Source: Halorhabdus salina (GTDB lineage: Archaea; Halobacteriota; Halobacteria; Halobacteriales; Haloarculaceae). From it: a stretch of 33,521 bases of DNA. The notes under the pieces were generated by a model. That model was not told where the DNA came from. It ran no database searches and was given only the letters and a program-made list of their open reading frames with translations. The DNA is taken from assembly GCF_013839425.1 (NCBI RefSeq), contig NZ_JACDNP010000016.1:11250-44770 (forward strand). The letters run 5' to 3'. Of this stretch, positions 19,589-33,521 are shown in pieces (positions within the stretch are counted from its first letter, which is position 1; each line of letters starts with the position of its first letter). Position numbers and translations under genes: made by a program.

Positions 19589-19631
19589 TGCGCTGGCCGG
19601 GAATTGAACCCGGGCTATGAGCTTGGGAAGC
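19589..19631 (-). other. 3' half of tRNA-Gly(CCC): attachment-site copy
   Basis: Read on the minus strand this is the anticodon loop TTCCCAA (anticodon CCC), the 3' strand of the anticodon stem GCTCA, a short variable loop, the T arm CCGGG-TTCAATT-CCCGG, and the acceptor strand CCAGCGC with discriminator A. The matching 5' half (acceptor GCGCTGG, D arm and 5' anticodon stem) is absent: the sequence departs from a tRNA inside the anticodon stem at 19,632. This is the structure left at one end when an element integrates into a tRNA 3' half. Confidence 0.8.
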
Positions 19632-19855
19632 GTACCCCGTAATCCAGGCGATTTCACCGGTAATCCGCTAGATATTTCGTCGTTTTCTCCAGCGAATTCA
19701 ACACCGATTTCCTGCGTTAGAGCCTTTCAAGCCGGTATTTTCGCCCGTTAGCGTTCCGGATTTCTTCGGCTGGTAATACTGGCGGATACATTATAAATCC
19801 CCGGTTTGTAAGCTCCCAGCTTAAATCGGTAATACCAGCTATAGAGGTGTTTCTG

Positions 19856-20656
19856 CTACTGTTCTATCTGTTTGATTGTGACTTTGGAGCGTCCTTCCCG
19901 GTCGGCTTGCCTTCCTGCTCGTAGAAGTACTTCGAGTGCTTCCCGGCAGTCGCCGCTGTTCTCCGCTACTGTTTCGGCGATCTCTTCGATGACTTCGTCG
20001 GGAACGGTTCCAGGGCGGAAAGCCTGTTCGACCCGTGTTTCGAGGATGTTCCGGAGCTGGTCGGCGGTGTAGGGTTTGAACTGGAGTGTCTGGCAGTTTA
20101 GCCGTGACCGGCTTCGGGGGTCGAGCTGGAGCTTGGAGGGGTGCTGGTTGGAGACCATGACGAGGCCGATCTTGTTGTCGGCTTTTTCGTTCAGCATTTG
20201 GAGGTCGTAGATGACTTCGGTTCTCTGTTCGAGCTGGTCGAATTCGTCGAGTGCGACTGCTACGTTCCTCTTCTTGTCGAGCCATTCCCTGATCTTGGAA
20301 AGGAGTTCGTCAACCGGCTTCCCTTTCCGCGGGGCAGGATACCCGAGTTCGATCAGAAGTTGCGTCAGCAGCGAGGAACGGGTGTTGTACTGCCAGCAGT
20401 TGATGTAGACGGACCTGGCCGATGTCTCGCTCTCTAACCGGTCGAAAACGTGTTTGACGCAGGTTGTTTTCCCGACGCCGGCCGGCCCATGGACGAGAAG
20501 GTTTTCCGGCTGCTTTCTTCTCGTTAATGGACGGACTGCATTGGCAATCCTATCTATATCTGCGTCTCTTCCCACCGGCTGATCCGGATGGTAGCTGGTG
20601 TTGAGATAGGTTTCTGACCGCAGCACGCCCTTCGAACTCTTCGACTTGTCAAACAA
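19856..20656 (-). CDS. Orc1/Cdc6-type initiator ATPase lacking the winged-helix domain
   Basis: A 266-aa AAA+ protein of the archaeal Orc1/Cdc6 family. It has the family opening (FDKSKSSKGVLRSETYLNTS, then PVGRDADIDRIANA), Walker A HGPAGVGKTT (56-65), Walker B ALDEFD (135-140), sensor 1 MVSNQ (168-172) and sensor 2 GDCREALEVL (about 235-244). It ends shortly after the lid domain, so the C-terminal winged helix (about 100 residues) that normally binds origin DNA is missing. The start is a TTG at 20,656, supported by a GGTGAGG Shine-Dalgarno-like stretch a few nucleotides upstream. It is divergent from the second Orc gene across 169 bp. Confidence 0.85.
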   Translation of the reverse strand: MFDKSKSSKGVLRSETYLNTSYHPDQPVGRDADIDRIANAVRPLTRRKQPENLLVHGPAGVGKTTCVKHVFDRLESETSARSVYINCWQYNTRSSLLTQLLIELGYPAPRKGKPVDELLSKIREWLDKKRNVAVALDEFDQLEQRTEVIYDLQMLNEKADNKIGLVMVSNQHPSKLQLDPRSRSRLNCQTLQFKPYTADQLRNILETRVEQAFRPGTVPDEVIEEIAETVAENSGDCREALEVLLRAGRQADREGRSKVTIKQIEQ

Positions 20657-20825
20657 AGCTTTCCCTCACCCCCTGGGTAGATGTATTTGATACCGAGGGT
20701 TAATCCCCGGTTTCACTCACTACGTTTCACTTGACGGATATATTTCAGAATTCGTCTTCCAAACTTTTCAAATGAAACCCGGTGCACCTCAGCCGGTGTA
20801 ACCCTGTCTCTCTGAAGACAGTTCC
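20657..20825. promoter_or_regulatory. Candidate replication origin/divergent promoter between two Orc genes
   Basis: This 169-bp gap has ORB-like pieces (CCCC near GTTTC): AATCCCCGGTTTCAC (20,702-20,716), a second GTTTCAC (20,724-20,730), and the inverted TGAAACCCGGTG (20,773-20,784). Between the outer copies lies an A+T-rich stretch with GGATATATTTC. AATCCCCGGTTT also occurs at 19,796-19,807, so copies flank the upstream Orc gene. Inverted Orc-binding motifs around A+T-rich DNA next to orc genes is the archaeal origin layout; the match to the consensus is only partial. Confidence 0.5.
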
Positions 20826-21836
20826 ATGACCGTGATCCACGACGTGACTCCATTACAGCAGAACCATCTACCCGAAGAAACAGTCGACAGAGAACGCGAG
20901 AGCCGTCTACTGACTGAGAACCTGGAATCAAGGAACCTGCATATCCATGGCCCTCGCGGAACCGGGAAGACGCACCTGGTGAAGAAGGCGCTTGAAGAGG
21001 TAGAGGCCAGGACCTGCTATGTCTCTTGCCTGAAACACGACACACAGTATAAAGCGTTGAAGCGGATAGTCTCCCAGCTCACCCGGGAAGAAGTCGAGTC
21101 AGGGCACCACACCTCCGAACTTCAGCGACGGGTCGAAGAACAGCTCGAAGTGATGGACGCGGTGATCGTGCTGGACGAACTCGACTTCCTGCTCCTGAAC
21201 AACGAAGAAGACCTGCTCTACTTTCTCTCTCGACTTGAGAACGGGCCGCAGATCACCGTGATCACTGCGAACGTTGAGAAACTCGGGGAAAGGTTGGAAC
21301 CCAGGACCTACAGCTCCCTACAACCCCGCCGAATACAGTTCGAGCCCTACACTGGCGAACAGGTCTACAAAATACTGGCGAAACGAGCTAAGAAGAGTCT
21401 GGCGGAGCGGTCAGTACATCGCAACGCAGTGACCTACATCGCCTCCAAGACACAGAACACGGAACTCGCGTTGACCTGGCTCCGAGTTGCTGCCCGGAAC
21501 GCAGAAGAAACGGTGACAGAAGAACTCGTAGAAGAAGTTGAGGAAGAAGCGTTCGAAGTCTACACTGAGTGTGAGTTGGAGCATCTTTCCCGGCACCACA
21601 AATACCTCTACCAGGCCGTAGAAGAACTAAGCAGGGAGAAAGGGCCGGTCATCAACGCCGGCGATATCTACCAACGCTACAGATCAGTTGCGGAAGAACG
21701 AGGAGAGGAAACACTGTCGGATCGACGAATCAGCGACTTCCTGAAACAACTTGAGCAGCTAAACTTGGTCAAAGCAGAATACCACTATGGCGGTAGGAAA
21801 GGAAAGACACGGGAGGTCTCAATCGAGAGTCCGTAG
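20826..21836 (+). CDS. Orc1/Cdc6-type initiator ATPase with winged helix
   Basis: A 336-aa AAA+ protein, somewhat shorter than chromosomal Orc1/Cdc6. Walker A is HGPRGTGKTH (41-50), Walker B VIVLDELDFLL (113-123), sensor 1 ITANVEKLG (146-154), and the lid follows with LALTWLRVAARNA (about 214-226). A winged helix occupies about 255-335 (LYQAVEELSREKGPV, then RRISDFLKQLEQLNLV and a basic wing GGRKGKTREV). It probably initiates replication of the element or regulates it at the adjacent intergenic region. The sequence is far from chromosomal Orc proteins. It converges with the OLD-family gene, with 8 bp between the stops. Confidence 0.85.
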   Translation: MTVIHDVTPLQQNHLPEETVDRERESRLLTENLESRNLHIHGPRGTGKTHLVKKALEEVEARTCYVSCLKHDTQYKALKRIVSQLTREEVESGHHTSELQRRVEEQLEVMDAVIVLDELDFLLLNNEEDLLYFLSRLENGPQITVITANVEKLGERLEPRTYSSLQPRRIQFEPYTGEQVYKILAKRAKKSLAERSVHRNAVTYIASKTQNTELALTWLRVAARNAEETVTEELVEEVEEEAFEVYTECELEHLSRHHKYLYQAVEELSREKGPVINAGDIYQRYRSVAEERGEETLSDRRISDFLKQLEQLNLVKAEYHYGGRKGKTREVSIESP

Positions 21837-21844
21837 AGTAGTCT

Positions 21845-23755
21845 TCAACCCTCAAGGCTGACGAAGCACTCGTTGACCCATTCATCAATCTCCTCTAGAA
21901 CCTCTTCCCTACTGGAGTCAACAACTGTTTCTCCATTAGACGATTTTCTAACCAGTCGCTGACAAACATCTGTCTTCATCGGCTCGCCTAAATCGTTCTC
22001 CTCACACCATTCATCCACGGCTTCTACACGATTCATTTCAGGCAGATCATCGGATTGTAACTCTACATCTGCGTCTTGCCATGTCTGAAGCTCCTCGTTC
22101 ACCGCCTCAACGTATCTCTCGGCATCAATAAGATCCTCAAATACAATCTGTTCACCAGGAAAGTCCTGAAGAGTTCTCACCTTTTCCGAGTCAACTACAT
22201 CGACAAGCGCGTCTCTCCTTTCTTCACCGGAGTTGTCCCCATCAAGTAGGATCATTGACCTCCCGGTTTCGGAGAGGAGTTCTGATACCTTTTCTTCCCC
22301 TACGTTCGCTGCACCGGGGGCCACCTGATATCCTAATTCGTCTTGGTCCGTGGCCTGTCGGATCAACGTCGGCAGTAGAATAGTCTCACTGGGACCTTCC
22401 GCAATCAAAGCATTTCTAGCTACTGTGAAAGCTACAGGATTCAATCCCATCGCAACCATGATTGGCTTGAATCCAGGCTCTTCCACCCAGAACCCGTTTT
22501 TGATATCACTTCGCTCACCCTCCAGCTGCACGACAGGGCGGATACCCCTCCCAAGGTCGGACGGAAGACAGCCCGCGGAATGAGTCGTATAGATAACTTT
22601 CTGAGCGACAGTCTGCGTCTCTAAAACCTCGATCAGCTCTGCCTGGGCATCATAACTGAGGTGGCTTTCCGCCTCGTCAACCAGGAGTATCGGGCTTTTA
22701 CCTGCGTTTTTCTGATTCAGGAACGCAAGCAACGCCACGAACCAACGGAGGCCATCGCTTCTTTGATCGATCGGTGCTCGGTTCCTTTCATCCGGAGTTC
22801 TTACATTGATATGCAGAACGTTACCATCTACACTCAAAACAGGAACTACGTCTTCCCGCACCCAAGCCTTCGAAAACTCTTCCTTCAGGTTATCATTAGC
22901 ATCTTCACGCAGGTCATCCCTGAAAGCGATATTTCTCGAAGTCACCGCGTCCCGCAGCTGCCCCAGATCTAGATCAGCTAACTGCGCCAAGTTCTCAAGA
23001 GCTTGTGGAGGATTCGGAACCTCTTCTTTCAAATCGTAGGTCGGCTTAAGGTTCCGGTCTGCCTCGTCGAAGATCAGAAACTTTGGCCGGCGTTTCAATA
23101 AGATCTCCCTGGCTCTATGAGGGGGAGAATTACGCTCATGCTCAATGAAGTCACCCAACAATTTAACGACCTCATCCATCTTCGAAGTGTCGTCCTCTTT
23201 CTCCTCCAAGTTGTCAACTACGTTCTTTAGATCCTCTGCCAGTTCTTGTATTTGATTGAGATTCTCATCCCCCAGGTAATCATCCTCGGACTCCAACGTA
23301 CTCACTACGTTCTGAAGGGCATTTTGTACTCCTCGAGCTACTCTTTCCTGGTAGACCTCTGACTCTTGGAGTGATGTAAGGGCCGAATAGGCTTCTTTCC
23401 GGGGCTTCAGATCATGTTCCGGCTTAGGATCAAGACTGATCGAGAGAGTTCCGTCTTCCTTCTTAGTCAAGGTACATTGCTCAATTTCCTCTCCCCCGTC
23501 CACAGAGCGTAGATCCTTCCAATCCCCTTCTTCCAAATTGAACGTGGCCTGGATCTTCGTTGGAATATCTGCTCGACGGGTCTGATCACTCTCTTCAATC
23601 TGTCCCTCAGTATTGAACTCCTCTAACGCCTCTAAAAACGAGGTCTTCCCGGCCTCGTTCTGACCGACAAGAGCAACAAGATCCTCCAAGAAACGCACAC
23701 TGACACGATCAGCAAAACGCCGATAACCCTGGACTTCAACTCCAATTAGACGCAT
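21845..23755 (-). CDS. OLD-family ATP-dependent endonuclease (ABC ATPase + TOPRIM)
   Basis: A 636-aa protein. The N-terminal ABC-type ATPase starts MRLIGVEVQGYRRFADRVSV and has Walker A GQNEAGKT (31-38). A long insertion with coiled-coil-like segments spans about 110-215. A signature-like RSDGLRWF (332-339), Walker B LLVDEAESHLS (357-367) and H-loop TTHSAG (390-395) follow. The C-terminal TOPRIM nuclease domain shows IAEGPSE with Glu453 and LLDGDNSG with Asp505 and Asp507, the metal-binding residues. OLD proteins cut DNA and occur in defence systems such as Gabija and some retrons. The start at 23,755 lies one nucleotide after the stop of the GHKL gene (TGA-T-ATG), so translation is coupled. 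No UvrD-like helicase or reverse transcriptase is nearby. Confidence 0.88.
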   Translation of the reverse strand: MRLIGVEVQGYRRFADRVSVRFLEDLVALVGQNEAGKTSFLEALEEFNTEGQIEESDQTRRADIPTKIQATFNLEEGDWKDLRSVDGGEEIEQCTLTKKEDGTLSISLDPKPEHDLKPRKEAYSALTSLQESEVYQERVARGVQNALQNVVSTLESEDDYLGDENLNQIQELAEDLKNVVDNLEEKEDDTSKMDEVVKLLGDFIEHERNSPPHRAREILLKRRPKFLIFDEADRNLKPTYDLKEEVPNPPQALENLAQLADLDLGQLRDAVTSRNIAFRDDLREDANDNLKEEFSKAWVREDVVPVLSVDGNVLHINVRTPDERNRAPIDQRSDGLRWFVALLAFLNQKNAGKSPILLVDEAESHLSYDAQAELIEVLETQTVAQKVIYTTHSAGCLPSDLGRGIRPVVQLEGERSDIKNGFWVEEPGFKPIMVAMGLNPVAFTVARNALIAEGPSETILLPTLIRQATDQDELGYQVAPGAANVGEEKVSELLSETGRSMILLDGDNSGEERRDALVDVVDSEKVRTLQDFPGEQIVFEDLIDAERYVEAVNEELQTWQDADVELQSDDLPEMNRVEAVDEWCEENDLGEPMKTDVCQRLVRKSSNGETVVDSSREEVLEEIDEWVNECFVSLEG

Positions 23756-23756
23756 A

Positions 23757-24932
23757 TCAGATCTCGTTGATCCTATCATCTACTCCGACTAGGGAGAGAA
23801 CTTTGTCTTTCAGCTCCCAGATCTCCTTCTCATTAGGCGTGAGATCGTCTTCATGCACCCAATCGAACTCGAAACTTTCCTCCCACTCATCTTTGAAGAC
23901 ATCCACATCCCGAATCTCTCCTCCTTCTATATCAGATTCGGAGCTGAGTTCTCTTCTAGTGCTATCCGGTACTGTCACGACTCTTTTCCCGTCTCCTTTA
24001 GCCCGGTCGACAAGGTCTTTCATCTGTCCCTGCTCTTCCGCGGTTACGAACATCGCTTCGCTTCGAGCGTTCAGCACACGAGCGGCATGAACCTGTACAG
24101 GTTTCCAAGACAACTCATCATGGTTCGTGCCCTCTTGGACTCGCTCAAGATCGTCTACAAGACGTTCAGCAACCTCTCCCGACTCGCAGGCCTGAAGAAT
24201 CTTCTTCACTCGCGACGTGTAGGCAGTTCTCCCAACGTTGGAACGTTCACGGTTCAACGCGTCCCGAATTGTTTTCGTAGTATTCGTAATGTTATAGCTG
24301 AACAGGAAGTCTGCTTCAGTGGCGACCTTTAATCCAGTTACGTAGATGCTTGCAGGGCCATCAGCAGACGGTTCGTAAACGTCTCCGAACCGAGTCTCCT
24401 CCAGTAAAGTCGCATCAGTGTAAGTCAAGAAATTCTGCTTCGCTTCTTCGATATCTTCCTCTGTACAGCCATCGAGAACCACCTCTGTCCCATCCAAGTC
24501 TGGGTACTCCGTCTTTCGGATAACGGCGTGCAGTGTTTCGATGTCATCGAATCCTGCCTTGGAGGCTTGTTCCACAGTAAAAGAGACATATGGTGAATGG
24601 ACAGTGACGTCTACTCCTTGTCGATAAAGGACGGCAAGAGCGTCTTTCAATCCAACACCGAACTTTCCAATTACCTTGTCAGGATTATTCAACTTCTCCT
24701 CGTCTTCCCCTTGAGTCAGGTCCTGATGGGTAAGGCCACGGCCATAGTCCCGAATATGCCACCTGCCTTCATCGTCTTCAAAGATATCCGGTTCCTGGGT
24801 CTCGGAGAGAGCTGCCTCATCCAACGCGTTAGCAATCAATTCACGGATTCCATCACTGGCCTCCCAAGCCTCCAGCAGCTCCTCTTCCATATTCAGGTCA
24901 AACTCTCTCGGCCACTCACTGCTCATATTCAC
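23757..24932 (-). CDS. GHKL (Hsp90/MORC-like) ATPase
   Basis: A 391-aa protein with a Bergerat-fold ATPase domain at the N-terminus. The N-box is RELIANALDEA (30-40; Glu31, Asn35), the ADP-contact box DYGRGL (62-67) and the glycine lid GKFGVGLKDAL (89-99). There is no phosphoacceptor histidine or membrane segment, so it is not a sensor kinase. It resembles the Hsp90/MutL/MORC side of the superfamily, whose members act as ATP-driven clamps. The C-terminal 200 residues match nothing I know. It is directly coupled to the OLD nuclease gene downstream. The two probably work as one system; that is inference from the operon. Confidence 0.83.
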   Translation of the reverse strand: MNMSSEWPREFDLNMEEELLEAWEASDGIRELIANALDEAALSETQEPDIFEDDEGRWHIRDYGRGLTHQDLTQGEDEEKLNNPDKVIGKFGVGLKDALAVLYRQGVDVTVHSPYVSFTVEQASKAGFDDIETLHAVIRKTEYPDLDGTEVVLDGCTEEDIEEAKQNFLTYTDATLLEETRFGDVYEPSADGPASIYVTGLKVATEADFLFSYNITNTTKTIRDALNRERSNVGRTAYTSRVKKILQACESGEVAERLVDDLERVQEGTNHDELSWKPVQVHAARVLNARSEAMFVTAEEQGQMKDLVDRAKGDGKRVVTVPDSTRRELSSESDIEGGEIRDVDVFKDEWEESFEFDWVHEDDLTPNEKEIWELKDKVLSLVGVDDRINEI

Positions 24933-24977
24933 TTGTTTTTCTCCCGCAAAGTTATCATACTACTGCTGTCCTTTTCG

Positions 24978-25397
24978 TCAGCCGAGTAAGTCCTGCAAGT
25001 TCTGATCATCCAACTCATTCAGCTCTCGTAATAACTTCCTTCTCTCTTTCTCAAGTTCTTGCTTGTCTCGCCATGCCCTCCGGCGTTCCTGCCGTAGCTC
25101 GGAATAGAATTCTTCGATCTTTGCCTTCAGGTGCTCTTTCTTCTCTTTGTCGTTGAAGAACTTCCTCTGGTACAGCTCTTTGAGTCGGTCGACGTACCAG
25201 TCCAGCTTTGACTCTAGCTCCACCACTACGTCATCACGTATCTCTTCCCGCTCTTCTAACTGCTGGTCGATCCGTTCAAGTTCTTCCTCCAATCGCTGCT
25301 GCTCCCGCTCCTGCGATTCCTCGAGGAACCGTTCGATGTCAAAACCGAAGGATTCGTCAGCCCTGAGGAGGTCGCGGGAGTAGTCGAGGTAATCCAC
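24978..25397 (-). CDS. Charged coiled-coil protein
   Basis: A 139-aa, almost entirely helical, highly charged protein. From about residue 25 to the end it is a heptad-like coiled coil (EREQQRLEEELERIDQQL, then QELEKERRKLLRELNEL). It has no cysteines or membrane segments. The start is a GTG at 25,397, because the frame has no internal Met. It lies 45 bp upstream of the GHKL gene and 33 bp downstream of a 50-aa gene, all on one strand. It may be a structural or sensing partner of the GHKL-OLD pair. Not recognised as a family. Confidence 0.75.
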   Translation of the reverse strand: MDYLDYSRDLLRADESFGFDIERFLEESQEREQQRLEEELERIDQQLEEREEIRDDVVVELESKLDWYVDRLKELYQRKFFNDKEKKEHLKAKIEEFYSELRQERRRAWRDKQELEKERRKLLRELNELDDQNLQDLLG

Positions 25398-25430
25398 ACA
25401 CCGGTATTACCCGCGGAAGGTGGAACACGG

Positions 25431-25583
25431 TTATTCCTCGCCCTGTTGCAGAAGCCCCCTGTATTCCCTTGCCTTCTCCCTGTACAGCTTCGGCAACTCC
25501 TCAACCTCTTCCTCGGTCCAAGATTCGACCTCTTCCAAGAGTTCCTCGGCTTCAGCCATGACATTAGCCAGATACAGACTCAT
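25431..25583 (-). CDS. 50-aa acidic helical protein
   Basis: A 50-aa protein starting MSLYLANVMAEAEELLEEVE and ending YRGLLQQGEE. It is acidic and predicted to be two helices. The start ATG lies 24 nt downstream of an A/T-rich TATA-like box, making it the likely first gene of the four-gene operon that leads to the GHKL and OLD proteins. Size and operon position would suit a small regulator or antitoxin-like partner, but nothing in the sequence proves it. Confidence 0.6.
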   Translation of the reverse strand: MSLYLANVMAEAEELLEEVESWTEEEVEELPKLYREKAREYRGLLQQGEE

Positions 25584-25602
25584 CGATCACATGTAGCACT
25601 AC

Positions 25603-25611
25603 GATATTTTT
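25603..25611 (-). promoter_or_regulatory. TATA-like box for the GHKL-OLD operon
   Basis: The minus strand reads AAAAATATC, centred about 24 nt upstream of the ATG at 25,583. It is the only such element close to a start in this operon, suggesting one leaderless polycistronic transcript. Confidence 0.45.
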
Positions 25612-25680
25612 CGTGTCTTTATTAGTCCCAATTTCTTTAGAAAAGTCGTTGAGCATTAGAAGCTCTACATCGCCATCCCA

Positions 25681-25687
25681 AAATATA
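25681..25687 (+). promoter_or_regulatory. TATA-like box for the small protein at 25,716
   Basis: AAATATA is centred about 32 nt upstream of the ATG at 25,716. Confidence 0.4.
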
Positions 25688-25715
25688 GGTAAGAGCTGCT
25701 TGTTCTTTGGAATCT

Positions 25716-26039
25716 ATGCCAAACCGTGATCTCGACCTTCACCCACGATTTGAACGAGACAAACCCATCAACGCCGATGTCATTGATACAGAAATTGGTG
25801 TAGTGAGCAGTAATGGATATCTCAACATCGGAAGCGAAAACTACCATCATATGGTTGCTTGGGCTCCATTTGAGTCAGGGGCGACACTTAGAACTCGCAC
25901 AGTAAGCGGGAAAGGACGTGAGGACAAGCAGACTTTTGTTCAAGAAGGGGATGGAAATGTCAACATTGGTCCTGGTGAGGAATGGGAGGGGCGTCAAGTA
26001 GTAGCACATATATTGGACAAGACGATTTCAGACTCGTAA
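25716..26039 (+). CDS. Small beta-rich protein, function unknown
   Basis: A 107-aa protein starting MPNRDLDLHPRFERDKPINA. It is predicted to be mostly beta strands, with several Gly-Asn turns (SSNGYLNIGSENYHH, then GDGNVNIGPGEEWEG, which look like two loose copies of a turn unit). No cysteines or membrane segments. It is transcribed alone, divergent from the GHKL-OLD operon and convergent with the recombinase gene. An in-frame TTG nine bases upstream is less likely as start than this ATG, given the TATA-like box. Not recognised. Confidence 0.65.
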   Translation: MPNRDLDLHPRFERDKPINADVIDTEIGVVSSNGYLNIGSENYHHMVAWAPFESGATLRTRTVSGKGREDKQTFVQEGDGNVNIGPGEEWEGRQVVAHILDKTISDS

Positions 26040-26082
26040 TCCGCAAGTTCAACTCACTCAATATTATTGCCAAGAAGGGAAT

Positions 26083-27312
26083 TTACCCCTCTAAATTTTC
26101 TATCTTTTCTAACACCCCTTCCTTCTCCAGCTCCGCCAGACGTTCCAATACCTCCTGTTTCTCCTCTTTCTTCGTCTCCTGCTCCAGGCTGAGAGGTCTT
26201 CCGCAGTTCCGGCACTCGGAATGAGTTTGCTGATTTTCCGTCCCGCAGAACGGGCACTCGATAGACTGGTTTTCTTCTTCCTCACTGCTGAGACCGTACT
26301 CGTCCCTGATCGCCCTGTTGACGTCGTCGTTGTTCAGGTGGACGTAGACCTTGGCTCGATCACTTCCCGGCTTCCAGCCGGCAAACTTGTTCAACTGCTC
26401 GTACCCCATGAACGTCGCAACCTCAGTCAAACGCGTATGCCGCAGGTTGTACGGCTTCCGCTTGTTCTCCGGGATATCCGCGGCCTCGCACGCCTTCTTG
26501 AACCGGCGGTAGAACCCACCGTAGTTCACACGGTCCCGTAGATCCGATTCGTAGGGATGGCTGTCGCCGTGGTTCCGCGGTATCTCGCCGCATTGCTTGC
26601 ACTCCTGCTGCTCTGTCTTCACCCAAAGAGGCGCACTCTTGTCGTCGATACTCCCCAGTTCACCTCCCAAGGGATGCTGCATCAACCATTCACGAACCGC
26701 TCGACCGGAACGCACCAACTGGTTCGTCCTGTCCGGCGTCCCCTTCAGACCTTCCAGGTATATGAAGTCGCCCTTCCCGTTCGAAGTGAAGTCAGCGATG
26801 TTCCGAGACAAAAGTTCTCCAGGACGGGCAGCAGACTCGTAAAGCACCATCGTGAACGCTCGATCCCGAACGTTCGAGAAGCTGCGGAACAACCGCTTCA
26901 GTTCGTCCTCGGTAAACAGGTCCTCCCGGGAAACGGAGGAGCTCTCCTTTCCCACCTTGAAGAACCGTGTCTTCTCCGGCTGCTCATGGCCTCCGTTCTG
27001 GATTCGGTAGAACTTCTTGACCGCGGTCTTGAACTTGACCTTCGTGGACTCGGCGTAGTCACTCCGGTTCACGTTGGCCAGTAACTCCTTCAACTCTGAC
27101 TGGGAAGCGCCCTTCATCTCGAAGCTGTCCGGGGCAAACTTGTTGAGAAGCGTTTTCCATGACCAGACAAGCCGGGCTTGCTGCACCTCACTGATCCCTT
27201 CTGCGGCGCAGTGATCCACAAACTCTCTGACGGCTTCCGTGTTCTCGGGATCGGCCTCGTCTTCCAGATTTTGAAGCGTTCGCTGTACGTCGACGTATTG
27301 AGTGGTAGACAT
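26083..27312 (-). CDS. Tyrosine recombinase/integrase with zinc-binding additions
   Basis: A 409-aa site-specific recombinase. The N-terminal core-binding domain spans about 10-105. The catalytic domain shows Arg163 (YESAARPGELL), the YxxR form of box II (Tyr288-Asn-Leu-Arg291 in PYNLRHTRLT), Trp313 (FAGWKPGSD) and the nucleophile Tyr323 (VYVHLN). Two unusual additions: a CKQC pair at 238-241 followed by His248 and His252 inside the catalytic domain, and a C-terminal zinc ribbon (CPFC...CRNC, 353-370) followed by a charged helix. It probably integrates and excises the element at the tRNA-Gly site. The start is the ATG at 27,312. Archaeal family members with YxxR are common. Confidence 0.9.
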   Translation of the reverse strand: MSTTQYVDVQRTLQNLEDEADPENTEAVREFVDHCAAEGISEVQQARLVWSWKTLLNKFAPDSFEMKGASQSELKELLANVNRSDYAESTKVKFKTAVKKFYRIQNGGHEQPEKTRFFKVGKESSSVSREDLFTEDELKRLFRSFSNVRDRAFTMVLYESAARPGELLSRNIADFTSNGKGDFIYLEGLKGTPDRTNQLVRSGRAVREWLMQHPLGGELGSIDDKSAPLWVKTEQQECKQCGEIPRNHGDSHPYESDLRDRVNYGGFYRRFKKACEAADIPENKRKPYNLRHTRLTEVATFMGYEQLNKFAGWKPGSDRAKVYVHLNNDDVNRAIRDEYGLSSEEEENQSIECPFCGTENQQTHSECRNCGRPLSLEQETKKEEKQEVLERLAELEKEGVLEKIENLEG

Positions 27313-27383
27313 AGATTCGATTCACGTTCAAAGAGAGAAGGAGACATGGGAAAGACACGGCTTCAATTGACCTCTACCACACC

Positions 27384-27408
27384 GGTTCGAATGGATAGCC
27401 ATTGAACC
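27384..27408. promoter_or_regulatory. Imperfect palindrome upstream of the integrase, candidate operator
   Basis: GGTTCGAATGG (27,384-27,394) pairs with CCATTGAACC (27,399-27,408) with one bulged base. It lies 72-96 nt upstream of the integrase start codon. Its left arm resembles a tRNA T-loop. It could be an operator, an arm site for the recombinase, or chance. Confidence 0.35.
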
Positions 27409-27635
27409 GTCTATCAAATGGCAGGACCCGCCTGAATATTAGCGGTCGATATCTGTCCTTTGCCGTGATTTGCCAGTCTCCTCTCTTCGTTTGGGGTTTC
27501 AACTGATGTATGGTGTTGAGTTTTTATATATTCTGTTTTATCTGCTTTTCTGGTTTGTTCTTGACTAGCCAGATTATCGAGGTAAAGGGTTACATTCGTC
27601 TGGTCTAATGGATTAGCCGTAGGGCAGGCTGCGGA

Positions 27636-27643
27636 TTTAAATA
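27636..27643 (+). promoter_or_regulatory. TATA-like box for the two-TM mini-protein
   Basis: TTTAAATA is centred about 32 nt upstream of the ATG at 27,672, consistent with a very short leader. Confidence 0.45.
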
Positions 27644-27671
27644 TGTCTGAGGAATATGCATATGTTAGAAG

Positions 27672-27845
27672 ATGGCTGGCGACGCAAATACACTTCTTTC
27701 CGGAACGGCGATGGCCGTCTTGATCGGCGCAGGGTCAATAGCTGTCTCTTTCTTCACTCCGGACGTTGACTTCGGAAGTAGACTGATACTGTTCTTCCTA
27801 GGTCTTTTCTTTGTCTGGGCAGGGCTGAGATTCTCTAAAGCATAA
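27672..27845 (+). CDS. Two-TM mini-protein
   Basis: A 57-aa protein starting MAGDANTLLSGTAMAVLIGA. It has two hydrophobic segments (about 8-28 and 37-53, the second LILFFLGLFFVWAGL) joined by the short loop TPDVDFGSR, and ends RFSKA. It has its own TATA-like box. It is transcribed toward, and convergent with, the nuclease gene at 28,024. The role is unknown; membrane mini-proteins of this kind occur in mobile elements and in defence loci, but nothing here identifies one. Confidence 0.6.
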   Translation: MAGDANTLLSGTAMAVLIGAGSIAVSFFTPDVDFGSRLILFFLGLFFVWAGLRFSKA

Positions 27846-28023
27846 CACCTGAAATATTCCGACCTCCCGAACACCTCTAAACATGTTACTAGAGTCTATA
27901 TCTATTTCATTGAAATCCCGAAGCAGTCGAAACACGGTTCAAATCGTCTAGGGCGATAGATTCTACCGTCTTATGAAGTAAGAATCGCGTTTTCAAAGCC
28001 AAGGCATCAGTTACATCTCTTTT

Positions 28024-29886
28024 TCATAACTCTCCGAGAGGAATATCTTCATCCAGATCTCTGTGTTCGTCCTGTTCGATCTTTTCCATCACGAACATCA
28101 GATGCTCTAGGTCCTTGTCCCTGAACTCTGGTGCGTCCCTTACGACCTCAGAAACCACTTTGTATCGATAACCTTCCTCCTCCAAACGTCTGACTGTCTC
28201 TTGTGGCGGCGAACTCCAAAACCAGAACTCTCCCTGCCTACTTTTCTCCGATTCAGGCTCTCTTACCTTGTCTTCTAACTTATTGAACTCGTATTCCCAG
28301 TCTTGGTTTGAAGGGTCATACTTGCATTCGATAAAACGGATCTCATCCGGTGTCTCAACCTGTACATCCAATTCACCGGCATCAAACGAAATATTCCAAT
28401 CCACATTATCGGAACTGTGGTCTTTCCGAGTTAGATAGTAGTAGGAAATCAACTCCACAAGGAGGCCCCTTGCCTTCCCCAGTTTAGTTTGACGTCGATT
28501 CGTCTCCGACTTCTGATCCAGTTCCTCAGACAGCTGCGATCCTCTCTCACCCACAGTCATATCAGAAACCATCTCCTTGAACTCATCTTTCTCAAGCTCC
28601 ATCTCTCGAAGTATGATCTCATCCCTCTCTAAATGGTTTTCAATAAGTGTCTCGGCCTGTATATGCTCTGAACCGGAGAACCCTGAGTAGTCTCCACAGC
28701 AATCGTAGAACATCACCCAGCCAGAATAGTCAGCAAGACCTGAACTTCCAGAAGCCTCAACTAAAACGCCGTAAGTGTAGTCGTTGCCAGGTTCAACGGG
28801 GTGAGTGAACTTACAAACGTAAGCCTTCTCTCCATCAGCAAATCTCTTTTTCTGATTCACGGTTCCTCCCATCAGAGAAATGAATGCAGGAACCCCGTTG
28901 AAAATCTTCGTTGAACGGAGGAACTCCACCTGATACCACAACAGTTGGTAGTCGAACTCCTCTTGGGTATCCAACCCTGTTTCCTGCGTTCGACTGGTTA
29001 ACTCCGTGAAGAAGTCTTCCAGTACTTCCCTATCAAGAAATAGGACATCATCCATTATTTCGACACCATTCTCAGCCTCAAGCGGCCGGACTACACCTTC
29101 CTCCACTTCTCCAAAGAAACGGTCCAGGTCTGCTCTTTCATCCGGAATGCCTCCGGACTCATCGAAGACGTTGATCGAATAGGACCACCTCTCAGACTTG
29201 TGTAGTTCACTGAGGCAGGTCTCTTTGAAAACCTCGTCCCCCACAAGCTGAGACCAGACGAACTGCAACGTCCGGCTGTATCCTTCTAAAGCTGATTCCA
29301 GCCGCTCCTCCCGAAGATCTGTATCTAGTACCGTGATATAGTATCCGTTCGGATACCCATCTCCGACGTCATTAAACCGGGTAAAGACTTGGAAAATCGC
29401 CTTTTGACGCAGAAGCTTTGCTTTCTCTATCTCGTAGTCAGAATTTGCAAAAGTATGATTCTCGAACAAATTCTGAAATGGTTGCACAACTTCCTCTTTA
29501 AAATCATCGAGAACAGTCTGAACTTCTTCCCAAGAATCTGCTTTCCTTAGGCTTCGTCGGTGGTCATTAATGTTCTTGATGAAAGCGGTTTTCTCACAGG
29601 TATTTGGCACAGAAGTTAGCCTCACGCCTTCAAAACGAGCTCTGAAGAACACGAAGTCTTCTTGGATCAACGGGAACTTGCTGTAGATAGTTTGATGTAA
29701 GAAAACTCTGAAAGCAGTCTCAGTGAAGAACTTGTAGCCGTCAAGAAGTTTATCAGATCTCTTAGTTCCGAACTCGTTTTGTAGCCATTCGCCAAACTCA
29801 TCTACATCTCCCACTCGGTCAATAATCTCTACAGAGCCTAAAATACCGCCAATTGAAGGCTTCTGGCGTTTTCCTTTATTGCCCAT
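28024..29886 (-). CDS. Large protein with C-terminal PD-(D/E)XK nuclease-like domain
   Basis: A 620-aa protein I do not recognise as a whole. The first 460 residues are mixed alpha/beta with no familiar motif. The C-terminal part fits the PD-(D/E)XK fold: a helix with Glu478 (GKARGLLVELISYYYL), a strand with Asp507 (SFDAGELDVQVE), then Glu520-x-Lys522 (IRFIECKYD), followed by a helix and strand (GEFWFWSS). That is an intact E...D...ExK set, so it is probably an active DNA or RNA nuclease. It follows the HerA-like ATPase gene by 46 bp on the same strand, suggesting a two-gene system. The ATG at 29,886 gives MGNKGKRQKPSIGGIL. Confidence 0.72.
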   Translation of the reverse strand: MGNKGKRQKPSIGGILGSVEIIDRVGDVDEFGEWLQNEFGTKRSDKLLDGYKFFTETAFRVFLHQTIYSKFPLIQEDFVFFRARFEGVRLTSVPNTCEKTAFIKNINDHRRSLRKADSWEEVQTVLDDFKEEVVQPFQNLFENHTFANSDYEIEKAKLLRQKAIFQVFTRFNDVGDGYPNGYYITVLDTDLREERLESALEGYSRTLQFVWSQLVGDEVFKETCLSELHKSERWSYSINVFDESGGIPDERADLDRFFGEVEEGVVRPLEAENGVEIMDDVLFLDREVLEDFFTELTSRTQETGLDTQEEFDYQLLWYQVEFLRSTKIFNGVPAFISLMGGTVNQKKRFADGEKAYVCKFTHPVEPGNDYTYGVLVEASGSSGLADYSGWVMFYDCCGDYSGFSGSEHIQAETLIENHLERDEIILREMELEKDEFKEMVSDMTVGERGSQLSEELDQKSETNRRQTKLGKARGLLVELISYYYLTRKDHSSDNVDWNISFDAGELDVQVETPDEIRFIECKYDPSNQDWEYEFNKLEDKVREPESEKSRQGEFWFWSSPPQETVRRLEEEGYRYKVVSEVVRDAPEFRDKDLEHLMFVMEKIEQDEHRDLDEDIPLGEL

Positions 29887-29932
29887 AGCTTCACTAAGTG
29901 CCGGCGAATCTTAAGTCGATTTGTGAAAAACC

Positions 29933-31897
29933 TCAGTCGAAGTCTTGGAAAAGACGGAACACCACCCGATCCGGATCTAGTCCTCGTTCCTCTATTCGCT
30001 GCTTCAGTCCTTCCTGAATCTCTTTGTTTCTACAGGCGATCCAGACAGTGAATCCCTTCTCCAGGTGCTTCTCTACGTGTTTGATTTCTCTTGGGTTGTC
30101 GCCCATCGCGACTTCGACTGCGAGCTCGTTGTTTCCCATGTTGACGTAGACGTCGGCGTCGAACTTTTCGAGGAAGGCGTCCCAGCCCGCTTCTTCGAAT
30201 GCGTCTCTAATGAAGTGCTGCCAGTACCTGTGGACTATACCGCCTCTCCCCCTGTGTTTCGGTTCGAGATCTAGCTGGTCTTCGACGTAGTCCCGTCCTT
30301 TCTCAGTGAGCTGGAGCAGCTTTCTGTTCTCTCCGTTCTTGACTTTCCGCTCTACGACGACTCCTTGATCGACGAGCTGGTTCTTCGCCTTGTTCCCTTT
30401 GTAGCTGCTGGAGAACTGCTGGTAGCGCTCGGTCAACGGCCTGAACGGGTTTTCGACAACGTCTTCGAGGAGCCGCTCTGCTTCGCTTGAGAGCTTGATT
30501 TCTGTCGGGTCTTCCGGTATCTCTTTCTCCGGAACTTCTTCGGTTCTGCCGGGAGCGATCCTGTCGTTGAATCTCTTTGTGGTCTTCCGCTGCTCATAGG
30601 ACAGGCCTTCCCACCTGCTTCTCTGCTCTTTTTCGAGCTCTCTGTCAGAGACGGTTTTCTCGACCTGGTAGTTCCGGAGTCTGACCGGGACGGGGCTATC
30701 GCTTCCCACCTGGACCACCGCTTCCCCGGTATCGAGTTCCTCGGCGAACTCTGCCTGTCTCTCAGACAGGTTCATCGCCTCCGTCATCGCCTGGAACTCC
30801 TTCCTTCCCGCCGTGGGCAGCAACGCCTTGGTATACGTATTGGCCTTGATCGAATCCGTCAGCTTTGACGCTTCTTGGTCAGCGACGACGAGGCCTTCCC
30901 CAAACTCTCTCATCTTCGCCGTGAGTTCATCAATCTCCGGGATGCCTGAAGCGTCCTGACGCTCTTTGTATACGGAGAAAACCCGCTTCCCCTCGTCGAG
31001 GAAGAAGACGTGGTTGAGGCCTTGGTTGCGGTGGTTCTGCGCCAGTCTGTACTCGTAGACGTACGCGAATAGGATCTCCATCAGGAAGTTCTGGACGTCC
31101 CGGATGAGACCGTCAAACTCGAAGACCACGTCCTCCTGTAAGAGCTTCTGGATGGAGTAGCCCTGGCTGCACTCGAAGACCGTCCCCGCAACAAGATTCA
31201 TCGCCTCCAAACGGTTGAGAAGAGTGTCGCGATAATCCGCCTGCTTCCTGACGTAATTGATCCCCTCCGACTTGACCAAGAGTTCTAACTCATGAAAAGA
31301 CGGGTACGGCCCGGAAACCCTGTTAAACAGGTTATAGAGCCTGTATACTTCGATAATCTTCTTCAGAAGATGGTTTTTCGAACCGCTGAGGAGGGACGTA
31401 GCATGGCTGAATACCTCGGAGAAAACCTGGGCCCAACGCCCCGGTGAAACACCTTCCGGCGGCTTCAGAGGATTGAACCGGAGCTCCGTCCACGGCAGCA
31501 CCAGGACGTCATCGACGTGCCGGTAATCCTGCTTCAGGTCGAAAGCCCAGAACGGCTTCTCGATTTCGTCCATCAAACTGTAGAAGAGAGTCGTCTTCCC
31601 CGAACCTGACTGGCCGACAGTCAGGAAATGCTTGGTGAGATCGTCTTGTGAGAGGTACAGTGGGTAGTTACGGAAGGTTACTCCCAACCTCACGTTTCCT
31701 GAATGCGAGGGTCTATCAAACGGGTATTGCCTGTGCTGAAGGGACTTCCAGAATACGGCCTTACCAGCGGATTTCCGGAGATGATTGGTACTGGAGAGCC
31801 CAGAAGCTAAAATCAGCTTCCGAATCTCCGGATCATCAAGAATACCCTCTTTTCGTGCCAATCGAAATAGCCTGTTGTCGACTCCCTGTCTATCCAC
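29933..31897 (-). CDS. HerA/VirD4-like pumping ATPase with winged helix and REase-like tail
   Basis: A 654-aa P-loop ATPase of the FtsK-HerA superfamily. A strand-rich entry (VRLGVTFRNYPLYLSQDDL) leads into Walker A GQSGSGKTT (95-103) and FWAFDLKQDYRHV. Walker B is HVFFLDEGKRVF (Asp301, Glu302). A Gln/Asp motif follows in VVADQEASKL and the superfamily closing region ends near residue 410. A winged helix is predicted at about 468-540. The C-terminal 100 residues (HRYWQHFIRDAFEEAGW, DADVYV, ELAVEVAMGD, FTVWIAC) look like a restriction-endonuclease fold with a degenerate ExA in place of ExK. HerA proteins pump DNA and pair with nucleases; VirD4 relatives act in conjugation. Start GTG at 31,897. 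Confidence 0.82.
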   Translation of the reverse strand: MDRQGVDNRLFRLARKEGILDDPEIRKLILASGLSSTNHLRKSAGKAVFWKSLQHRQYPFDRPSHSGNVRLGVTFRNYPLYLSQDDLTKHFLTVGQSGSGKTTLFYSLMDEIEKPFWAFDLKQDYRHVDDVLVLPWTELRFNPLKPPEGVSPGRWAQVFSEVFSHATSLLSGSKNHLLKKIIEVYRLYNLFNRVSGPYPSFHELELLVKSEGINYVRKQADYRDTLLNRLEAMNLVAGTVFECSQGYSIQKLLQEDVVFEFDGLIRDVQNFLMEILFAYVYEYRLAQNHRNQGLNHVFFLDEGKRVFSVYKERQDASGIPEIDELTAKMREFGEGLVVADQEASKLTDSIKANTYTKALLPTAGRKEFQAMTEAMNLSERQAEFAEELDTGEAVVQVGSDSPVPVRLRNYQVEKTVSDRELEKEQRSRWEGLSYEQRKTTKRFNDRIAPGRTEEVPEKEIPEDPTEIKLSSEAERLLEDVVENPFRPLTERYQQFSSSYKGNKAKNQLVDQGVVVERKVKNGENRKLLQLTEKGRDYVEDQLDLEPKHRGRGGIVHRYWQHFIRDAFEEAGWDAFLEKFDADVYVNMGNNELAVEVAMGDNPREIKHVEKHLEKGFTVWIACRNKEIQEGLKQRIEERGLDPDRVVFRLFQDFD

Positions 31898-31946
31898 ATC
31901 TTAATGCTGTGGACTAATCCGTATCAGATATTCTTCACACCCTACT

Positions 31947-32564
31947 TCATTTACTTTGAATCTGGCTCTGCATCTCCTCTAACTGCCCTGTTTCATTAAG
32001 GTGAAGAACAAGACCGAATCCGATACTCAGGAAGATTAGAAGGAAGAACCCTCTCCCACTGTCAAAATTCACGAGTTCAAGTCCAATCCATCTCTGAAAA
32101 ACCGGAAGAAAAAATGCGAATGCGCAAGGAGGGATAACAAGTCTTCGATCAAATGGGTCTCTATATCTAAGAACTGTCCTGAGCGAAATCTTATCTGCCT
32201 TTCTGGCATTGACGTACCACCTACTGAGAAGAACTCCCAGCGCAAGAAACTGAATGGGAAGAATCTCCCCGGTAAAATAACTCACTGCTCCACGAAATGT
32301 GTCACCAATAACCACAGCACCGATAGCCGTCAAAATGAACATAAGAAACCCTCCATCACGGCCTAATAGAGTAAAATCATCCGGTCCTAATTCAGTCCAC
32401 ATCTGAACCAAGATCGCGTAAAAGAACAGAGTGGCAGCTGCCTCTATCCTCCAGTAACTGAAATCAGACAGCACGACTGCTACAATAATAATCAAAAGAG
32501 AGATAGCAGGAACCAATTTCTCCCGCTCAACTTTCGTGTATGGAGCCGTGGAGTCGTCTGGCAT
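31947..32564 (-). CDS. Six-TM membrane protein, function unknown
   Basis: A 205-aa protein with about six hydrophobic segments: LVPAISLLIIIVAVVLSDF, AATLFFYAILVQMW, FLMFILTAIGAVVIGD, LPIQFLALGVLLSRWYV, LVIPPCAFAFFLPVF and FFLLIFLSIGFGLVLHL. It has a short hydrophilic loop (NARKADKISLRTVLRYRDP) and a Gln-rich C-terminal tail. The ATG at 32,564 starts MPDDSTAPYTKVE. It lies 49 bp upstream of the HerA-like gene on the same strand and may belong to the same transcript. No known family recognised. Confidence 0.7.
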   Translation of the reverse strand: MPDDSTAPYTKVEREKLVPAISLLIIIVAVVLSDFSYWRIEAAATLFFYAILVQMWTELGPDDFTLLGRDGGFLMFILTAIGAVVIGDTFRGAVSYFTGEILPIQFLALGVLLSRWYVNARKADKISLRTVLRYRDPFDRRLVIPPCAFAFFLPVFQRWIGLELVNFDSGRGFFLLIFLSIGFGLVLHLNETGQLEEMQSQIQSK

Positions 32565-32608
32565 ATCCTGGTGTCAAAGTACGAAACGTAACACCGTTCC
32601 GATTTATA

Positions 32609-33010
32609 TCATCCAAAATCACCGAGTCCAGACTGGCTGGTAAGTACAGCAGTTGCTTCCTTGACTTTCCGGTTGCCGGATTTTCGCAGTACTAGGCTGT
32701 CGTACTGTTCTTTGCCGTGGATATCGGCCAGGTTCTCAAGGTATCGTTCTGCCTCTTCTACGGAATCAAAGAACGGGTTGACCAGCTCATCGCCTGACTC
32801 GGTGTGGTAGACGACTCCGTCTTCTCCGCTCCAGTAGTACTGTGTCCTGCTACCGCCGCCAGGGATTGCTTCCTCTGCTTGCTGCTCCAGTTGTTCGATC
32901 GCCTTCCTGTAATGTGCTTCCGGGAAGTAGTTTTCCAGCTCAAACCGGAGTTCGCCGGAGGTGTTGGAACCTCCGGTGAGATTCATCCAGTACGGCTTCT
33001 CCTCTTCCAC
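32609..33010 (-). CDS. Small acidic protein, function unknown
   Basis: A 133-aa acidic protein. It reads EEEKPYWMNLTGGSNTSGEL, a helical middle (YRKAIEQLEQQAEEAI), a strand pair YYWSGEDGVVYH, then DSVEEAERYLENL and YDSLVLRKSGNRKVKEA. The start is a GTG at 33,010 with a GAGGAG Shine-Dalgarno-like stretch upstream; the protein-like frame continues upstream to a stop without ATG, so the true start could be earlier and non-standard. It lies 26 bp downstream of the gene at 33,037. Not recognised. Confidence 0.65.
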   Translation of the reverse strand: MEEEKPYWMNLTGGSNTSGELRFELENYFPEAHYRKAIEQLEQQAEEAIPGGGSRTQYYWSGEDGVVYHTESGDELVNPFFDSVEEAERYLENLADIHGKEQYDSLVLRKSGNRKVKEATAVLTSQSGLGDFG

Positions 33011-33036
33011 ATACCGTTTCTCCTCGAGAAGCTCGT

Positions 33037-33363
33037 CTACTCGTCGTATTCTGGATTACCTTCTTCTGGCTCAAGCATGGCCTCTAACTCGGTTTCGTAC
33101 ACTCGAACGATGTCCTCGACCGTACCGCCGTCCGGGAACAAGGGAGCTTCGTCGTCCGGATCTAGATCGGTTCTGTAGGCTCCAGCCTTCTCCAGTTGTT
33201 CCTGACTGAAATAGCCGTACTCCCAATTATCGTAGGTATTCGGAGATTTTACCCGACCAAAGTACAGGCCGTCGTCCTCCTTGTCGTAAGCCTCCCACTC
33301 CCAATTCGGAAGGAACGCAGCCTCCCAGGACGCAAGCGGCTCTTCCTCATCGTAGTCAGTAAT
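33037..33363 (-). CDS. Small acidic Trp-rich protein with non-standard AUU start (or frameshift)
   Basis: A clear 108-codon protein-like frame with no ATG, GTG or TTG near its beginning. It reads ITDYDEEEPLASWEAAFLPN, then WEWEAYDKEDDGLYFGRVKS, FSQEQLEKAGAYRTDLDPDD, and ends EGNPEYDE before TAG at 33,037. An in-frame TGA lies three codons above the ATT at 33,363. A GGTGA Shine-Dalgarno-like motif precedes that ATT by 6 nt. Either ATT is the start codon, or a single-base frameshift joins it to the short frame MLNVGNILLSKVNHYY beginning at 33,406. Acidic, Trp/Tyr-rich; not recognised. It heads the small acidic gene pair. Confidence 0.6.
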   Translation of the reverse strand: MTDYDEEEPLASWEAAFLPNWEWEAYDKEDDGLYFGRVKSPNTYDNWEYGYFSQEQLEKAGAYRTDLDPDDEAPLFPDGGTVEDIVRVYETELEAMLEPEEGNPEYDE

Positions 33364-33508
33364 AGTGATTCACCTTGCTGAGTAGTATGTTCCCAACATT
33401 CAGCATCTTGAAGTCAGACCGTAGTTCGTATGGCTTCAGACAGAGTCTACATCCAATTACAGAACAAGACAGGTTGATGTACGGTAGTTTTCAGATGGCG
33501 GTGATACT

Positions 33509-33521
33509 ATGCAAACCGAAT
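33509..33521 (+). CDS. Possible start of a gene running off the window
   Basis: ATGCAAACCGAA at the very end follows GGCGGTGAT, a good Shine-Dalgarno-like stretch, with a short spacer. Only four codons are visible, so nothing can be said about the product. Confidence 0.25.

Follow-up and report, generated by a model that had tools for sequence, protein, structure and literature searches.

A shortened GHKL ATPase gene and an adjoining OLD nuclease gene in the cargo slot of a haloarchaeal integrative element: a probable effector replacement

Results

Gene content of the locus

The window, i.e. the whole stretch of 33,521 nucleotides of Halorhabdus salina DNA that was analysed, contains four neighbouring genes on one strand:

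25431..25583, minus strand: P4, a 50-amino-acid acidic protein; element backbone, adjoining P3 in the relatives compared
24978..25397, minus strand: P3, a 139-amino-acid coiled-coil protein with a GTG start; element backbone
23757..24926, minus strand: GHKL ATPase of 389 amino acids, a shortened member of a GHKL-zincin family; first cargo gene
21845..23755, minus strand: OLD-family ATPase-nuclease of 636 amino acids with AAA_15 and the TOPRIM residues E453, D505 and D507; second cargo gene
23753..23759, minus strand: junction TGA-T-ATG, comprising the GHKL stop and the OLD start with 1 nt between them; the TATA-like box found in standalone OLD relatives is absent upstream

In line with a previous sequence-only reading of this DNA, the genes are separated by 33 nt (P4-P3), 45 nt (P3-GHKL) and 1 nt (GHKL-OLD). 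The second gap amounts to 51 nt if the GHKL protein starts at the in-frame GTG at 24932; the start that agrees better with the family alignment is the ATG at 24926. Strong conservation among relatives shows that the ORFs are real genes. The key residues of both large proteins, which the same reading had described as intact, are present. They comprise E29/N33 (N box), D60-x-G62-x-G64 (G1) and G87-K-F-G-V-G92 (G2) in the GHKL protein, and Walker A (GQNEAGKT, 31-38), Walker B (LLVDEAE, 357-363) and the three TOPRIM residues in the OLD protein, where the catalytic residues are invariant among five aligned relatives. Pfam yielded weak HATPase_c matches for GHKL, and for OLD a match to AAA_15 (3.7e-21) together with a weak, below cut-off match to OLD-like_TOPRIM (0.004). 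The OLD protein has the organization of its family, an AAA_15-type ABC ATPase followed by a TOPRIM domain with the Glu and the DxD motif.

The locus is part of an integrative element

A low-GC island (46-57%) begins near 19.5 kb and continues as far as the end of the contig, as opposed to 60-66% GC in the adjoining DNA. This region is a haloarchaeal integrative element (window 19590-33521) with the backbone order HerA, tyrosine integrase, P4, P3, cargo slot, Orc1a, Orc1b and tRNA-Gly attachment site. Besides P4 and P3, the backbone features are:

29933..31897, minus strand: HerA/FtsK-like ATPase
26083..27312, minus strand: tyrosine integrase with a zinc ribbon
20826..21836, plus strand: Orc1/Cdc6 'a' (Orc1a), convergent to the cargo and closing the cargo slot
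19856..20656, minus strand: Orc1/Cdc6 'b' (Orc1b), AAA and lid
19590..19630, minus strand: 3' fragment of a tRNA-Gly (read as CCC), serving as the left-end attachment site

A 620-amino-acid element protein (window 28024-29886) was not matched by any entry of Pfam, PADLOC, NCBIfam or PHROGs. The tRNA 3' part at the left end is common to the window element and a related element in genome G383, and a complete copy, read as tRNA-Gly(CCC), is located on another contig of the own genome, near nadE and a second integrase. This site (L120, C12:1-8000), which contains the full tRNA-Gly, nadE and a tyrosine integrase unrelated to that of the window, is possibly the other end of the window element, beyond the contig break. 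At a further locus (L084), a complete related element of 6.7 kb lies between a full tRNA copy and a partial one.

Relatives of P3 are found in 29 of 391 haloarchaeal genomes, own genome included. A P4 relative lies close to P3 in all nine loci first compared, where integrase and/or Orc1 genes are usually nearby, and the order HerA, integrase, P4, P3, slot, convergent Orc1a and Orc1b holds in most of 20 larger stretches (L082-L101). About 20 elements have P4 and P3 near integrase and Orc1 genes, with neither GHKL nor OLD alongside. The idea that the four genes form one operon or system, with the small coiled-coil proteins as accessory subunits, fails in this comparison, since P4 and P3 belong to the backbone of the mobile element.

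The slot is empty in nine elements (L082, L083, L084, L085, L090, L097, L099, L100 and L101), P3 and Orc1a either overlapping or lying within about 235 nt of each other. In others it holds a KAP NTPase with QatA/PifA-type PADLOC matches (L086), a PbeC-like C-terminal ATPase region and GIY-YIG (L087), a PLD/PDC-S05-like protein (L094) or Mre11/Rad50-like genes (L096), and in L089 and L093 genes without clear tie to defence. The content of these slots is partly defence-like. To judge by their position between P3 and Orc1a, GHKL and OLD are the cargo of the window element; their third-position GC (0.526 and 0.510, respectively) contrasts with that of the backbone genes (0.64-0.73).

The window GHKL protein is a shortened member of an unnamed family

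GHKL relatives were detected in 13 of the 391 haloarchaeal genomes, own genome included, on six genome contigs, on plasmids of Salinibacter, Euzebya, Priestia and Croceicoccus, and in a Bacillus-like prophage contig. Among 146 genomes of the taxonomic family to which the window belongs, the gene is present in no more than three besides the own genome, each time in full length. After removal of duplicates by the author, 23 other full-length members were counted, and all of them end in a C-terminal zincin domain of about 95 amino acids with an HExxH motif or a degenerate version of it. The window copy shares the GHKL and the middle region with this family and lacks precisely the zincin domain, the protein stopping at the domain's first strand.

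Most members have an HExxH variant such as HEVAH, HELAH or HELVH (loci L015, L016, L021, L023-L027, L029, L032-L035, L037, L038 and L102). In one haloarchaeal clade (L014, L017-L020, L022 and L036) the C-terminal domain is retained and HExxH is lost (LLDIVAF), which suggests a non-catalytic version. Pfam gave only sub-threshold matches for the domain (metallopeptidase DUF6782, Peptidase_M91 and SprT-like). A short ORF in another genome (L117, G134:C1:37808-37993) matches the zincin part alone of the family profile. A search for the zincin domain elsewhere in the own genome, performed without a positive control, did not locate a copy.

The AlphaFold model of a full-length relative is good in its C-terminal half (pLDDT about 80-95) and poor in the GHKL half, so that the Hsp90/Topo VI-B-like GHKL folds retrieved by Foldseek with the low-confidence GHKL model are tentative matches. 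None of the full-length proteins scanned matched a PADLOC model, and we found no description of the family in the literature searched, the coverage of which was incomplete. As far as these comparisons reach, the GHKL-zincin proteins appear to constitute an undescribed, unnamed family whose members occur in archaea, in bacteria and in a prophage-like contig.

The closest relative of the window protein is encoded in G383 (86% amino acid identity, as compared to 45-62% for the others), and the nucleotide similarity between the two spans from the GHKL start codon through the window GHKL stop. A decaying pseudogene is not supported: the window copy retains all 80 residues that are otherwise invariant in the family, and its terminal branch is short (0.02, versus 0.16 for the full-length sister, a figure which includes the zincin columns). 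Among 55 positions at which the window and G383 proteins differ, the outgroup-like state is found in the window copy at 33, versus 14 in that of G383. Their dN is 0.096; since the synonymous rate is saturated, a dN/dS ratio cannot be given. A recent truncation alone could also account for the lack of decay.

The window OLD gene lacks the promoter box of its relatives

Four close relatives of the OLD protein (46-62% identity) were found among 391 genomes, all of them standalone genes in the stretches compared; the peptide patterns used did not retrieve any relative from viral contigs. All four have a TTTAW (TATA-like) box at position -29 or -31 from the start. The window gene has no such box, because the coding sequence of GHKL fills this position. 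The window OLD gene therefore seems, as far as a consensus can show, to rely now on GHKL expression.

Neighbours of the GHKL relatives

Many GHKL relatives adjoin restriction or other defence genes. In G095, G187 and G033, a gene for a DEDD-motif exonuclease starts 1 nt after the full-length GHKL-zincin gene (TAA-C/T-ATG). An Mrr-type endonuclease follows the full-length gene at L015 and L016, and a type I restriction subunit R follows the relative in Salinibacter. Given the 1-nt-coupled exonuclease in three cases and the Mrr endonuclease in two, the arrangement of GHKL followed by a nuclease recurs. The 245-amino-acid exonuclease occurs in three genera (L033:8394-9131, L034:10601-11338 and L035:10384-11121), and the L034 copy had no Pfam match. 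In G187, a different OLD-family protein (AAA_15 and TOPRIM) is encoded immediately upstream of the GHKL-zincin gene (L034:7202-9118).

As to the proposed pairing of two ATPases, the 1-nt spacing and the intact motifs stand; a conserved adjacency was not found. An OLD of the window type was found beside none of the 23 other full-length GHKL relatives, and the pairing was seen in one genome only.

Comparison with known systems

The PADLOC, NCBIfam and Pfam scans yielded no named system with a GHKL-OLD pairing, and none is described in the literature searched (coverage incomplete), which agrees with the earlier statement that no named system of this kind is known. Among known systems, VcSduA (GHKL-Shedu, paraMORC3) provides an experimental precedent for the control of a nuclease by GHKL: its N-terminal GHKL ATPase is proposed to have this role, and the GHKL domain and the fused nuclease are both needed for anti-phage activity (PMC12137116). 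In contrast to the window pair, VcSduA is a single polypeptide with a DUF4263 PD-(D/E)xK nuclease and without OLD/TOPRIM (PMC12137116); neither the window GHKL nor the window OLD has a DUF4263 Pfam match, and Shedu was rejected on this ground. In MORC/paraMORC systems, the GHKL module likewise lies near restriction or defence genes and is combined with interchangeable nuclease or TIR effectors, whereas their description mentions neither a C-terminal zincin nor an OLD partner (PMC2292703).

Class 1 OLD proteins (P2 Old, TsOLD) share the ABC ATPase and TOPRIM architecture and are encoded by single genes (PMC10568477), as are the close relatives of the window OLD; the window copy differs in that it directly follows a GHKL gene at a distance of 1 nt and is devoid of its relatives' TATA-like box. 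Gabija (GajA-GajB), PARIS and retron OLD systems combine an OLD-type or AAA_15 ATPase with a second protein, which is a UvrD helicase, the TOPRIM protein AriB or a reverse transcriptase, respectively, in contrast to the GHKL ATPase of the window. Gabija (class 2 OLD) does not apply, as the window OLD is flanked by GHKL and Orc1 without an adjacent UvrD-like GajB. The best PADLOC match of the window OLD is AriA, limited to the ATPase part; PARIS was rejected, as TOPRIM and ATPase reside in the same protein and an AriB neighbour is missing. Likewise, the neighbouring proteins scanned do not include the reverse transcriptase of a retron (class 3 OLD).

Discussion

Taken together, these results leave a two-gene cargo of a mobile element that probably arose by effector replacement, of which we see one occurrence. 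The sequence-only reading is thereby supported in part: the genes are real, and the grouping of all four does not hold. In the reading we prefer, a GHKL-zincin protein would have lost its C-terminal zincin domain, a protease-like effector, exactly at the domain border, and a separate OLD nuclease gene would have taken the place of that effector; OLD would now be translated immediately downstream of GHKL, presumably from one transcript. The GHKL dimer may work as a clamp driven by ATP: it would sense a state related to an invader and, as a physical partner, license the OLD ATPase-nuclease, which would then cleave nucleic acid. Most family members would have the zincin domain as their licensed effector; the window locus would have OLD. 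The licensing step is proposed by analogy with VcSduA (PMC12137116) and with the exchangeable effectors of MORC/paraMORC (PMC2292703). We give an even chance to the view that GHKL and OLD form a cargo unit that originated by zincin replacement and in which GHKL licenses the nuclease. That the GHKL switch has exchanged its built-in protease for a translationally coupled nuclease, so as to constitute a GHKL-OLD defence system with an antiviral effect, falls somewhat short of that.

Several features speak for a link between the two proteins, namely a truncation that falls on the domain boundary, the 1-nt spacing of the genes, the absent OLD promoter box, the undecayed GHKL, the shared third-position GC and the nucleases that follow other family members. 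They have to be weighed against the occurrence of the pairing in a single genome, the partnerless close relatives of OLD and a slot that also carries cargo without obvious tie to defence.

Chance juxtaposition is somewhat less likely, yet a serious alternative. A class-1-like standalone OLD gene would have entered the slot by a recombination that removed the final part of the GHKL-zincin gene already present there; OLD would act alone, and the shortened GHKL would be a remnant or act independently. The standalone OLD relatives, the changing neighbours of full-length GHKL genes elsewhere and the uniqueness of the pairing are in keeping with such an event. A random insertion accords less well with a junction that coincides with a domain boundary and leaves the genes just 1 nt apart, with an OLD gene deprived of the TATA-like box of its relatives, with the lack of decay in GHKL and with the base composition common to both genes.

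Phage rIIA proteins act in counter-defence, and GHKL could in a similar way serve the element itself, or function in its replication or partition, with OLD travelling along as a superinfection-exclusion gene. The match of the GHKL domain to the phage family phrog_6077 and the relatives in the Bacillus prophage-like contig would fit this role, which we nevertheless consider unlikely, as many relatives reside next to restriction or other defence genes and as GHKL is absent from most elements of the family to which the window element belongs. A complex of all four proteins with coiled-coil accessory subunits, for which the common strand and the short gaps might speak, is highly improbable because P3 and P4 are backbone genes that dispense with GHKL and OLD in their other elements.

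If effector replacement is correct, a GHKL sensor would be able to drive unrelated effectors, a protease in cis and an OLD nuclease or an exonuclease in trans, and signal transfer within GHKL immunity would become testable through partner swapping. The pair aside, the analysis brings to light an unnamed GHKL-zincin family with members in archaea, in bacteria and in a prophage-like contig, and it points to the cargo slot of a haloarchaeal integrative element as a place to seek further defence genes.
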